A stretch of 64,000 nt of DNA from positions 310,001 to 374,000 of the forward strand of contig NZ_LT629775.1 of NCBI RefSeq assembly GCF_900105395.1, given 5' to 3'. This stretch comes from Streptomyces sp. TLI_053 (GTDB lineage: Bacteria > Actinomycetota > Actinomycetes > Streptomycetales > Streptomycetaceae). Made by a program: the position numbers and the translations under genes. Under the pieces are notes generated by a model that saw only the letters and a program-made list of their open reading frames with translations, had not been told where the DNA came from and made no database searches. Shown here piece by piece: positions 24,026-29,359 of this stretch (positions are counted from its first letter, which is position 1; every line of letters begins with the position of its first letter).

Positions 24026-24721
24026 TCAGAGCTCAATCCTCGAACTCCCCGGTTCCGTGCGGGCGGACGGCGGGTCGGGCACGGGGTCGTACGCCGGGAT
24101 CTGGGTTTCCGGCATCGTCACCCGCTCCGTTCCCACCACGTCGGGCACCGGCCCGACGTAGTCACCGCGGTGCGCGTGCCCCCTCCCATTGCTGCTCGGG
24201 TTCGTACTGTATTCGGCAGCCGCCCGGGCTCCGTTCTGATCGTCGTCGAAGTTCATGACGAACACACGATGGCTGATCGTCTCGGCGATCGACCAGGGAA
24301 CGATGTACTCGTCCACCCCGCCACCGGCCGTGTCATCCACCCGCAGGACGATGCCGCGTTCCCCGAGTGCGTCCATGAGGGGCTCGTCCCCGGGAATGCC
24401 GAGGACGGACTTGATCTTGTTGATGGCCTCCGTGTCCCTCTGGTCCTCGCCCGTGGACTCGACGAGTTCCTTGTCGACCGGCATGACGCTGACACGCTCG
24501 ATCCGCACCTCGACGACGGCACCCGCGGTCGCCATGTGCGTCTGGTCATAGGCGTAGGCAGCCGCCCCATGAGGGGTGGGGCTCAGATAGAACGCCTGCC
24601 ACTCCGGGCTGCCATGGCCCTGATGTCCGGCACGCCTGATCCCCGCCCGGATGTTCTCCGCATCCTGGCGGCTCTTGCACCCGTGGTAGCCCGTCACCCC
24701 TGTGTCTTCGATGATCGGCAT
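24026..24721 (-). CDS. Possible ADP-ribosyltransferase-fold protein
   Basis: A 231-residue protein. Its first 70 residues (VTGYHGCKSRQDAENI, then EWQAFYLSPTPHGAAAYAYD) have the order of motifs seen in small ADP-ribosyltransferases of the DUF3990/PARP-like kind: H in a YHG strand, an F-Y-L-S strand with Tyr, then an Ala-rich helix. A later VEVRIERV or KELVEST stretch could supply the acidic residue. The assignment is by pattern only. The C-terminal 60 residues are polar and probably disordered. The ATG has a strong GGAGGGCGAG ribosome-binding site. No immunity gene is evident. Confidence 0.6.
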   Translation of the reverse strand: MPIIEDTGVTGYHGCKSRQDAENIRAGIRRAGHQGHGSPEWQAFYLSPTPHGAAAYAYDQTHMATAGAVVEVRIERVSVMPVDKELVESTGEDQRDTEAINKIKSVLGIPGDEPLMDALGERGIVLRVDDTAGGGVDEYIVPWSIAETISHRVFVMNFDDDQNGARAAAEYSTNPSSNGRGHAHRGDYVGPVPDVVGTERVTMPETQIPAYDPVPDPPSARTEPGSSRIEL

Positions 24722-25944: not shown

Positions 25945-26100
25945 GCCTTGCCAGTAGTACGGACGCGCTTCGCGTGCGGGCTCAGCCGAAGGAGCCGTCG
26001 CAGCCGGGTGCGGGCGTTCGTGCTCGGCCTGCTCGCGGACCTGCCGAGAAAGCACTGCGGGACCATCGCCGAGTACGTCAGTGACGCCGGCCCCTTGCCG
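25945..26100 (+). pseudogene. IS701-type transposase N-terminal relic
   Basis: The frame reads RSRVRAFVLGLLADLPRKHC, then GTIAEYVSDAGP, the N-terminal signature of Streptomyces IS701-like transposases. The reading ends within about 35 recognisable codons, just before the bounded element at 26133. It is a truncated relic. Confidence 0.6.
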
Positions 26101-26132
26101 CGCACCCTCCCGGCCGCCACGCTCGGACTCAG

Positions 26133-26150
26133 TTTGTTCTTTAACCTCTG
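26133..26150 (+). repeat. Left terminal inverted repeat
   Basis: TTTGTTCTTTAACCTCTG matches the reverse complement of 28258-28275 except at the outermost base. CTCAG lies immediately outside. Confidence 0.82.
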
Positions 26151-26264
26151 CCCGTGGTCGGCCCCCTTGCTGACCACGGGTTTTCGTGTTCGCAGGACAG
26201 CTGGACGACGTCCGCGTGATCATGTGCTTCGGCTGCAAGGCGCGATGACAACCTGAGGACGAGT

Positions 26265-27738
26265 GTGCTGGAGAATGCCGACCGTGCCGGGGCACTGAGT
26301 GTGATGTCGGATTTCCGTGCGGGCTTCTACGGATGCCTCACCGCCCGGGCGGACGCACTGTTCGAGCTGACCGATGCCATGCTCTGCGCCGACGGACCGG
26401 TGAAGACTCTGGTCGACCTGACGCTGACGCCCGAGCACCGGCGCGGACACGGTGCGCTCTACGACGGATTGAACCGTGGCCGGATCGAGGTGGAACGACT
26501 CCGTGCCGAGTTGTCCGGCCTGCCTCTTCCCAGAGCGGCCGACGGACGTATCGTGCTCGCGGTGGACTTCAGCCCGTGGCTACGCTCGGACGCGCCGACC
26601 AGCGCCGAGCGGCTCTTCTGCCACGTCTACGGGCGCGCGAAGAGCACCTCGCAGTTCATCCCGGGCTGGCCGTACTCCTTCGTGGCCGCGCTGGAGTCCG
26701 GCCGCACCTCGTGGACGGCGGTGCTCGATGCGGTCCGTCTCGGTCCGCAGGACGACGCCACCGCGGTGACCGCCGACCAGCTCCGCGATGTCGTCGACCG
26801 CCTGATCACCGCCGAGCACTGGCAGACCGGTGATCCGGACATCCTCATAGTGATGGACGCCGGCTACGACGTCACCCGCCTCGCCTTCGTCCTGGCCGAC
26901 CTGCCCGTGGAAGTCCTCGGCCGGATCCGGTCGGACCGGGTACTGCGGCTACCGAAGCCCCCAGGAAGCCGGGGACCAACGGCCGCCCTCCCAAACACGG
27001 CCCCGAGTTCGCGCTGAACAAGCCGATCACCTGGCCCGAGCCCCAGCACGCCACGACCACCGAGACCACTCGCTACGGCACCGCCAAGGCCAGCAGCTTG
27101 CACCCCCGCCTCACCCACCAGACCTGCTGGATCGACCACGACGGCGACCTCCCCGTGATCGAAGGGACGCTGATCCGGCTGCAGGTCGACCACCTCCCTG
27201 GTGACCGCGACCCCAAGCCCGTCTGGCTGTGGTCCTCCCGCACCGGCGCCACTGCCCACGACATCGACCATCGCTGGCAGGCGTTCCTCCGCCGATTCGA
27301 TCTCGAACACACCTTCCGGTTGTTCAAGCAGACCCTCGGCTGGACCCGCCCGAAGATCCGCACACCCGAAGCGGGTGACCGCTGGACATGGCTGGTGATC
27401 ACCGCCCACACCCAGCTCCGCCTCGCCGACCGCTCGCTGAGGACCTCCGCCGGCCATGGGGAAAGCCCGCCGCACCCGGACGACTCACCCCGGCGCGAGT
27501 CCGGCGAGGATTCAGGAACATCCGCGCAAAGTCGCTCCTCCCGGCCAGTGCGCCGAAACCCGGAAGGCCTGGCCCAGGCCGACCGCTCGGCTCCACCAAC
27601 CGGCAGAAGGCCTCGCGCTTCGACGTGCGCAAGACCGAACTGCGTGATCTGACGATCAAGGAACGACGACAGCGCATCGAAGGGGGAACGCGACCGCCTG
27701 GCCGCGTCGTTGGTCCACCAGGAAAGGAGCGTCCGTGA
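26265..27738 (+). pseudogene. Transposase of the bounded element, frameshifted
   Basis: The frame from GTG 26265 (ribosome-binding site GAGGAC) gives ARADALFELTDAMLCADGPV, DFSPWLRSDAPTSAERLFC and DILIVMDAGYDVTRLAFVLA, a common Streptomyces transposase family with DDE-type aspartates. Near 26960 the frame shifts: GTNGRPPKHGPEFALNKPIT continues in another frame, with LEHTFRLFKQTLGWTRPKI. Near 27427 it shifts again to RLTPARVRRGFRNIRAK. A further slip near 27685 is likely, and the last frame runs into the phosphatase start. At least two breaks make it inactive unless they are sequencing errors. Confidence 0.85.
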
Positions 27739-28247
27739 AGACACGACAGAGAGACCGAGGCGCCCCCGAACCGCAGGCGCCGTGGAACGAGGTCAGGCCG
27801 CGGCTATGGCAGGGCGGGCACTTCTGGGCCAGTCCTGACGGCGAGGTGCAGACCGCCGTTGTCGGTACTGAATTCGACCTGGTCATCAGCTTGTTCACCC
27901 GACCGGGCCATGGACCGCATCCCGGAGTAGACCATCTGATCAATGAGATCCCGGACGGCCCACTCACGGCTGAGCAACTCCACTCGGTGCAACAGCTGGC
28001 CCTCACGGCGGCTGAGGCCGTACGGAATGACCGCACCGTTCTCGTGCGCTGCCACTCCGGCTACAACCGCTCCGGCCTCGTCGTCGCACAGACCCTGATC
28101 GAGCTGGGTCAGGACCCGGCGACCGCCATCGCACTCGTTCGACAGAGTCGATCGCCCTGGGCCCTGAACAACCAGACCTTCGAGCAGTACCTCACCACGG
28201 GACTCGACGTCGCCTACCTTCTGGCCGGACTCGAAACCCGCACCTGA
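27735..28247 (+). CDS. Dual-specificity / tyrosine phosphatase carried by the insertion element
   Basis: A 170-residue protein with the cysteine phosphatase loop LVRCHSGYNRSGLV (C-x5-R) near residue 108 and a preceding conserved region (EFDLVISLFTRPGHGPHPGV, then the general-acid segment EIPDGP). This is the layout of small DSP/PTP enzymes that remove phosphate from Tyr or Ser/Thr, or from nucleotides and lipids. GTG 27735 overlaps the end of the last transposase frame and has AAAGGAG at ideal spacing. The gene lies wholly inside the inverted repeats and, unlike the transposase, is intact, which suggests it is under selection. Confidence 0.85.
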   Translation: MKTRQRDRGAPEPQAPWNEVRPRLWQGGHFWASPDGEVQTAVVGTEFDLVISLFTRPGHGPHPGVDHLINEIPDGPLTAEQLHSVQQLALTAAEAVRNDRTVLVRCHSGYNRSGLVVAQTLIELGQDPATAIALVRQSRSPWALNNQTFEQYLTTGLDVAYLLAGLETRT

Positions 28248-28257
28248 TCAACAGCAC

Positions 28258-28275
28258 CAGAGGTTAAAGAACAAG
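28258..28275 (-). repeat. Right terminal inverted repeat
   Basis: It pairs with 26133-26150 (17 of 18). CTCAG follows at 28276-28280, repeating the five bases before the left end. Confidence 0.82.
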
Positions 28276-28305
28276 CTCAGGTCGGACTCGACACCTGGGG
28301 GTTCC

Positions 28306-28452
28306 TTGGACACCACCAACCACCGCCGCAACCGGCGAGGCAGCGGCCTCGGCTGCCTCGTCCTCGCCCTTCTCGTCGCCACGGTGTTCGTCGCCTTCCT
28401 CGTCTGGGCCTGGCACCAGCCCGGCAACGGCACCCCCAGCTACTGGCACTGA
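28306..28452 (+). CDS. Small single-pass membrane protein
   Basis: A 48-residue protein from TTG 28306 (preceded by CTGGGGG): a basic N-terminus LDTTNHRRNRRGSG, one membrane helix CLVLALLVATVFVAFLVWAW, and a short outside tail ending PSYWH. The composition and topology look real despite its length. It starts about 30 bp outside the insertion element, so insertion may have separated it from its promoter. No family is recognised. Confidence 0.5.
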   Translation: MDTTNHRRNRRGSGLGCLVLALLVATVFVAFLVWAWHQPGNGTPSYWH

Positions 28453-28801
28453 CGCTCTCGACCGGCCGGCCGCCCGCGGCGGAGCCGTCGCGGACCGGGA
28501 CGGGGACCAGGTCGAGAACGAGGTAGAGAACGAGGACGAGCCGCGACATCCCGACGATGGCATCCGGCGCGCGACACCTGCCCGGCGGAACAGTGCCGAG
28601 GCCCGGTGCGAGGCGTTCGCCCGGGCGGCCGGGCCGCCCCGCGTCGTCGGTCCGGCATCCGTCGGGCGCTGCGGGGCCGGGTGGCGGAACACGCACGGTC
28701 CGGCGAACGGGTGCGAGCGGCACCGAACGTCAACGGGTCCGGGAAGGCGACCCGGCTCCGTCGACGACTGCGGCGGCGGTCAGCAGCACCAGGTTCTGCG
28801 T
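28453..28801. other. Intergenic stretch, nothing recognised
   Basis: Very GC-rich, between convergent genes. No hairpin longer than a few base pairs and no convincing frame were seen. Confidence 0.4.
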
Positions 28802-29110
28802 TCAGCAGTCCGACTGCTCGGTGGCGACCTCGGTGCCGCAGGCCGCGCAGACGAGATTGGGCCCGTCCCGGCCGTCGAGTCCGCAGCAGCCGTTACGACG
28901 GCCGAGGTCGGGGTGCGCAGCCGTTCCCGGCAGGTCGTCGGGATGCAGGACAAAGGCAGCGGCATCGTCACCGATCGCGTAGGTGCCCCGGGCCATCCGG
29001 GGAGGGGCGATCCGGTGGCCGGACCGCTTCTCGCCGTCCCGCGACGGCCGTGCTCGCCTGAGTTCCCCGGTGAGTGGCCGGCCGCAGTTCGCGCAGGTGA
29101 AGAGGGTCAT
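28802..29110 (-). CDS. Zinc-ribbon protein of a Streptomyces-specific family
   Basis: A 102-residue protein with an N-terminal knuckle (FTCANCGRPLTG) and a C-terminal Cys-rich end (NGCCGLDGRDGPNLVCAACG, then TEVATEQSDC), suggesting two bound zinc ions. The middle (MARGTYAIGDD) is conserved in the family. The start MTLFTCANCG is chosen by analogy with the related protein at 42745-43209. The function is unknown. Such proteins sometimes sit near regulators, but none is adjacent here. Confidence 0.72.
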   Translation of the reverse strand: MTLFTCANCGRPLTGELRRARPSRDGEKRSGHRIAPPRMARGTYAIGDDAAAFVLHPDDLPGTAAHPDLGRRNGCCGLDGRDGPNLVCAACGTEVATEQSDC

Positions 29111-29359
29111 CCGGACATTCGCATCGACGCGCAGCGCGTCGGGGCGGCCCGCCGGCCCGACGCGGTCGCGTCCGGAAGATCGAGTCCGGAACGTCCGACA
29201 CGCTCCTCCCCATGAAGGCCGGTGGATCCCGCCCGGCGTCCCCGCACCGTCGATCGCCGCGATCGGGTGCGGCGGCACGCCTCTTGCCCCCGTTCAGCAC
29301 GACCGCGCACGCTGGGTTCGGCGCCCTCGTGGAGCGATGGGCCGGGGAGGGAGGAACGA

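Follow-up and report, generated by a model that had tools for sequence, protein, structure and literature searches.

The passenger genes of small insertion sequences (IS) are mostly resistance, virulence or metabolic genes. An IS derivative with passenger genes is termed a transporter IS (tIS) in the relevant passages of PMC9330008. In the corresponding passages of a 2008 survey, passenger modularity was seen in the IS231 subgroup but in no other subgroup of IS4 and no other IS family, and the target duplication of IS701 was given as four bp (PMC2266710); where two later surveys mention IS701, the passages concerned describe no passenger in it (PMC11092175; PMC7371123). A literature search of open-licence papers returned neither a tIS of the IS701 family nor one with a phosphatase as cargo, and the IS701-like transposase family NF041680 (NCBIfam) was named in none of the papers searched. 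Here we describe an element of this family in a 64-kb stretch (hereafter, the window) that covers 310–374 kb of the 9.9-Mb single-contig genome of Streptomyces sp. TLI_053. We consider it very probable (about 85%) that positions 26133–28275 of the window are an IS701-like (NF041680) insertion, that it holds a complete gene of the dual-specificity/protein tyrosine phosphatase (DSP/PTP) type with a predicted sigmaE-type promoter of its own, and that this gene was likely retained by selection once the transposase had broken.

Element boundaries and empty sites

The insertion is 2,143 bp long and is delimited by the following features:

26128..26132, + strand: left target duplication CTCAG, identified by sequence; present as a single copy at the empty sites, for example as TTCAC in L196
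26133..26150, + strand: left terminal inverted repeat (TIR), 17/18 match to the right end, 29.7 bits
26151..26180, + strand: subterminal palindrome CCCGTGGTC...GACCACGGG, with counterparts in L072, in L151 and, at the left end, in L040, an element free of the phosphatase
28258..28275, - strand: right TIR, 17/18 match to the left end, 34.4 bits
28276..28280, + strand: right target duplication CTCAG, identified by sequence and by the empty-site comparison

The TIR pair is part of inverted arms of 23 nt (26128–26150 and 28258–28280, 91% complementary), with CTCAG on the outer side of each repeat. The 17/18 match is not decisive on its own, because seven other inverted pairs of this quality, at a spacing of 0.2–4 kb, occur in the window. 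The bit scores given above were obtained with a profile built from the ends of other NF041680 elements, against which the next best site in the window reached 11.9 bits, and both ends were of the inverted NF041680/IS701-like type. As in IS701, the target duplication measures about 4 bp, with CTCAG on both sides and a single copy at the empty sites; its exact length is ambiguous (3–5 bp), since CTNAG is palindromic.

Starting with its very first bases, the downstream flank (28281–28453) is matched in other genomes of the genus. At all six places that were fetched (L192–L197), both flanks adjoin without the element. Four of them (L192, L193, L195 and L196) could be aligned to the joined window flanks with no interruption where the flanks meet; in L196, for instance, GCCACGCTCGGATTCAC runs directly into GTCGGACTCGACACC, as GCCACGCTCGGACTCAG does into GTCGGACTCGACACC in the joined flanks of the window. 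Small alignment gaps are located close to the site in L194 and L197. The empty sites therefore indicate that 2,143 bp and one target copy were inserted, and the boundaries of the element are settled, because both ends fit the family profile and the relatives show the empty site. Thus, the original prediction of a bounded insertion with 18-bp repeats and flanking CTCAG, for which empty sites should be sought, was borne out by the end profile and by six related genomes.

Directly upstream of the element, an N-terminal remnant of another IS701-family transposase was detected at 25991–26093 (NF033540, 24 bits, under the cut-off), and stretches similar to it (about 77–88%) recur at numerous positions across the genomes of the genus.

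Phosphatase, promoter-like site and transposase

Between the ends, the element holds the following features:

26265..27014, + strand: transposase piece 1, matching positions 2–215 of the NF041680 profile and Pfam DDE_5
26981..27427, + strand: transposase piece 2, in another frame, matching the middle of the NF041680 profile
27433..27675, + strand: transposase piece 3, in a third frame, the C-terminal part, matching the NF041680 profile up to position 437 of 439
27685..27711, + strand: predicted extracytoplasmic function (ECF; sigmaE-type) promoter of the phosphatase, with GGAAC at 27685–27689 and CGTT at 27708–27711
27735..28247, + strand: phosphatase gene of 170 amino acids, GTG start, intact frame, with the CX5R motif C106–R112 and the invariant D74

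The frame of the phosphatase gene is open throughout, as had been claimed, and its stop lies 10 bp before the right TIR. The CX5R active site and the Asp of DSP/PTP phosphatases are present: C106, R112 and D74 were invariant in 44 of 44 aligned sequences (the window protein and 43 chosen among the 120 listed of 729 found), and D74 probably acts as the general acid. The residue preceding the catalytic Cys is Arg. The window protein scored 23.8 bits against Pfam DSPc, below the cut-off of 33.5, and all 44 aligned members matched this domain at E 0.001 or better. A fold comparison indicated the DUSP fold, with DUSP/PTP-type entries in all of the best 50 matches listed, where the absence of other folds carries little weight. 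A dual-specificity phosphatase family was also matched in PHROGs, and four of the 44 relatives additionally matched Pfam Tc-R-P (polymorphic toxin phosphatase). The product is described here as a predicted DSP/PTP-type protein phosphatase. The PADLOC defence library gave no match at E 0.1, and a weak match to a PHROGs family named thymidylate synthase was taken as chance.

The promoter-like site, GGAAC-N19-GTT, lies 23 nt before the phosphatase start. We collected 93 distinct phosphatase loci, the window included; in 37 of them, GGAAC-N18/19-GTT occurs no more than 90 nt ahead of the start, compared with 0.5% of 15,652 control windows; these counts include related loci, which are not independent. 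The spacer was 19 in 26 sites and 18 in 11, and one locus has an additional site with a spacer of 15. All ten loci with element remains (see below) have the motif. According to the relevant part of PMC10012870, GGAAC-N18-19-GTT is the consensus of sigmaE-dependent promoters in Corynebacterium and mycobacteria; the sigma factor could be other than sigmaE, because sigmaH reads the same sites in Corynebacterium (PMC10012870). The sigmaE sites of Streptomyces coelicolor, as presented in a part of PMC10771440, have a GGAAC-like -35 element and a spacer of mostly 18 bp. On this basis, the phosphatase is predicted to be read from its own sigmaE-type promoter. The blastn matches of L074 and L072 to the window start at 27683–27684, i.e., at the promoter-like site, and the sequence before the site differs (the transposase start in L074, the left end in L072); in L151, the similarity resumes at 27662, just upstream of it. 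Thus, the captured or retained unit appears to be the promoter-like site together with the phosphatase.

The transposase gene is spread over three frames; comparison with open relatives revealed two frame changes, in line with the two or more frameshifts of the original prediction, and the matched pieces contain no in-frame stop. Taken apart, the pieces scored 281, 145 and 72 bits against NF041680, and none of them reaches the cut-off of 440 bits because the gene is broken. Transposase similarity stops near 27675, and the last 60 nt of the piece-3 frame cross the promoter-like region of the phosphatase. The claim that the phosphatase begins where the transposase frame ends holds for the frames, which do meet, but the meeting is probably fortuitous in view of this end of similarity. 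Translational coupling of the two genes through their GTGA overlap was rejected, the transposase similarity ending 60 nt before it. Among L040–L069 and L158, the nearest relative of piece 1 was the phosphatase-free L040 (82%); the similarity of the window transposase to that of L074 was 65%.

Element-linked copies and probable capture of the gene

Phosphatase-gene matches at E 1e-20 were obtained in 31 of 70 genomes of the genus, single in 30 and partial in two of the 31. In Streptomyces (GTDB sense), only three of 392 genomes gave a match at E 1e-72, none above 71%, and no element end was found at L173, a locus from this search. L199, inspected by eye only, is outside the 93 loci. A relative of the phosphatase was present in three plasmid records, no plasmid record had a single place covering 80% of the element, and four phage records carried distant phosphatases (30–33%).

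Remains of NF041680 elements were detected at ten of the 93 loci: the window, L157, L071, L072, L151, L152, L158, L073, L153 and L144. Right ends were located 12–34 bp past the phosphatase stop at six of the 93 (the best control window reached 4.0 bits), and transposase tails just upstream of the phosphatase likewise at six, in a profile search that was also run leave-one-out; this search did not support L075 as a possible tail. The left end stands immediately ahead of the phosphatase in L072; L151 has retained the right end, the left palindrome and a fragment from the start of the transposase. In L144 and L158, the transposase or its remnant is in the opposite, divergent orientation to the phosphatase. 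The phosphatase stop codon of L144 (the same place as L174) lies inside the element end (L174 6580–6640), so that the C-terminus was apparently shaped by the capture joint. L158 (= L074, Streptomyces fildesensis) carries a full-length transposase (565 bits) and a divergent phosphatase within one end pair; at each of the other nine element loci, the transposase gene is either broken, reduced or lost. Among NF041680 elements in general, 11 of 19 examined in the genus had a convincing end pair of the same end type with CTNAG-like flanks; for the other eight, a search allowing up to five mismatches gave no convincing pair.

The ten element loci have no flanking sequence in common beyond the element (blastn E 1e-10, up to 5 kb a side; much shorter flanks were compared for L144, the left of L158 and the right of L157). 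Flanks of kilobases are shared by L154–L156 (Streptacidiphilus), which are nested in the same clade, and common flanks were found in 30 of 30 comparisons among six Kitasatospora-group loci of another clade. Recurring neighbours were also observed for phosphatase groups in Streptomyces and Actinomadura. Because the copies are scattered, we infer that the whole segment may have moved as a unit by means of the NF041680 transposase. Since related element-borne copies occupy unrelated places in other genomes, elements of this kind likely moved the phosphatase gene between genomic places.

On the phylogenetic tree of 86 of the 93 loci, nine of the ten element loci fell into one clade of twelve (support 88/89), with L144 elsewhere, and the label 'element' needs three state changes. 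L130, L132, L134, L135, L136, L137 and L138 were left out owing to a stop in the extended frame or to short length; at least L130 and L136 cover no more than a portion of the gene, and others may be frame-extension artefacts. On the tree alone, one origin followed by losses and two to three captures are both possible. Two or more captures are favoured because there are two gene arrangements and because the window transposase is nearer to L040 than to L074. The presence of conserved chromosomal neighbours in other phosphatase groups suggests the capture of a host gene, which likely happened repeatedly. NF041680-type elements thus seem to have captured it at least twice, and it sometimes settled again, as in Streptacidiphilus.

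The original prediction had named two findings that would speak against cargo, of which one was encountered. Conserved neighbours of phosphatases without an element exist elsewhere and point to a captured host gene, and the status of the phosphatase as cargo here stands on the empty site, the ends and the scattered copies. Ends that exclude the phosphatase belong only to different NF041680 elements, L040 being the nearest, and not to copies of this element. The observation itself is confirmed, and the earlier interpretation as a whole is partly supported.

A relative of the phosphatase with conserved neighbours lies about 20–85 bp after a conserved gene in L085, L097, L098, L099, L127 and L136. 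The product of that gene is presumably DinB-like, and a functional link of the phosphatase family with it is possible. Elsewhere in the window, an open reading frame at 24029–24721 (- strand) gave borderline matches to Pfam ADP-ribosyltransferase-type catalytic domains (27.6 and 27.4 bits, barely over the cut-offs), and 28720–29119, to which no gene was assigned, has 80–81% identity to places in G054 and G056.

Interpretation and comparison with known systems

Taken together, a sequence of events may be proposed. A chromosomal unit of promoter and phosphatase would have been captured by NF041680 elements, next to their transposase gene, at least twice independently (once in parallel and once in divergent arrangement). 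The transposase would have acted on the outer ends and carried the whole segment into CTNAG targets, the phosphatase presumably having no part in transposition. At each new place, the gene would be readable from its own promoter independently of neighbours, likely under envelope stress; the transposases would have decayed afterwards, with the promoter and the phosphatase being kept, presumably to the benefit of the host. The element of the window is single in its genome and probably immobile, because no full NF041680 match and no second copy of its ends occur there (end search with at most one mismatch). It is likely stranded, and the phosphatase is its surviving part.

Several results weigh against this proposal. 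A clean end pair with matching CTCAG on both sides was seen in the window only, which was also the only hit of the exact-end pattern over 70 genomes of the genus; at L074/L158, no matching target repeat was found. L157, L071 and L073 show a transposase scar only, and L072 a left end only. End-like sites of 9–12 bits also occur elsewhere in the scanned DNA, and the weakest ends (L151, L153 and L144) therefore rest on position and score. The window genome has no NF041680 match above the cut-off, its eight matches all being partial, and further copies of the element in it are fragments only. The phosphatase is missing from all 30 NF041680 loci examined in other genomes (L040–L069, flanks of up to about 1.5 kb included), and cargo carriers thus look like a minority. 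The exact promoter-like site is absent from 56 of the 93 loci; of the three Streptacidiphilus loci nested in the clade, two lack it. Decayed remnants of the phosphatase also occur, so the gene was not always kept: an 81-bp piece of a second copy (84%) is located in the other chromosome arm (G000:C1:9505492-9505611, L009), and G003 and G007 contain partial matches. Finally, part of the purifying selection may have acted before the insertions.

The best-surviving alternative is that the phosphatase is neutral baggage, too recent to have decayed. The perfect duplication and the 17/18 ends would suit a young insertion, and decayed pieces of the gene are known from elsewhere. However, the transposase of the same insertion already has two frameshifts, and the element remnants in L151 and L072 pick up again shortly ahead of the promoter-like site (at 27662 and 27684 of the window). 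In addition, the ratio of nonsynonymous to synonymous substitution rates (dN/dS) was 0.12–0.40 in the 45 pairs among the ten element-linked genes, at dS 0.26–1.03 (Nei-Gojobori, own script); the ten genes are full-length by choice of the tree set, and their intactness is no evidence in itself. We consider neutrality unlikely, at perhaps one chance in a few.

It is improbable that the phosphatase serves the element alone, changing phosphorylation so as to favour transposition or maintenance in the manner of an accessory transposition gene with no host benefit. That the gene has been paired more than once with a single transposase family, in two arrangements, and that L074 has it next to a full-length transposase would agree with such a role, but the 30 other NF041680 loci lack it, it persists at nine of ten element loci whose transposase is broken, reduced or lost, and it is also found, often together with the promoter-like site, where there are no remains of an element. 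That an IS merely landed beside an ordinary chromosomal phosphatase, with a second end beyond it by chance, as the conserved neighbours of several phosphatase groups and the chance inverted pairs in the window might suggest, is very improbable, since the empty site shows transposase and phosphatase to be either both there or both missing, as one piece, both ends fit the family far over background, five sister copies have such an end 12–34 bp past the stop, and element-linked copies share no flanks; the empty site would lose its force only if precisely this segment had been deleted from the genomes that show it.

Beyond the cargo reading preferred here, we tentatively raise a broader possibility, which we hold to be somewhat more doubtful than probable: streptomycete IS701-type elements may repeatedly have picked up a sigmaE-driven phosphatase unit and planted it where it outlives the transposase, rewiring the envelope-stress phosphorylation response of the host. 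If so, a signalling enzyme joined to a portable stress promoter would offer a simple route for the spread of regulatory parts. The likely repeated captures, the scattered sites, the full-length relative and the clean empty sites make the question testable.

Comparison with described systems places the parts of the locus as follows. The protein shares the CX5R loop, the fold and the invariant Asp with DSP/PTP phosphatases (DSPc; the solved structures of DUSP28, Tk-PTP and VHR) and differs from them in the Arg before the catalytic Cys and in its low DSPc score of only 23.8 bits. The predicted promoter matches the GGAAC-N18-19-GTT form of actinobacterial sigmaE-type ECF promoters, although it rides on an insertion element. 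The element resembles NF041680/IS701-type IS in DDE_5, the left subterminal palindrome (in L040), CTNAG-like flanks and CTTG..TTTA(A/T)CC-type ends, and probably in the transposase family. Unlike the IS of this type that were examined, which have about 1.6 kb between their ends and no phosphatase, it measures 2.14 kb and contains a second gene with its own promoter-like site. In a family for which our search found no tIS described, the element of the window would resemble a tIS in its mode of working, with a passenger gene (the phosphatase, 27735–28247) between IS ends that are delimited by an empty site.
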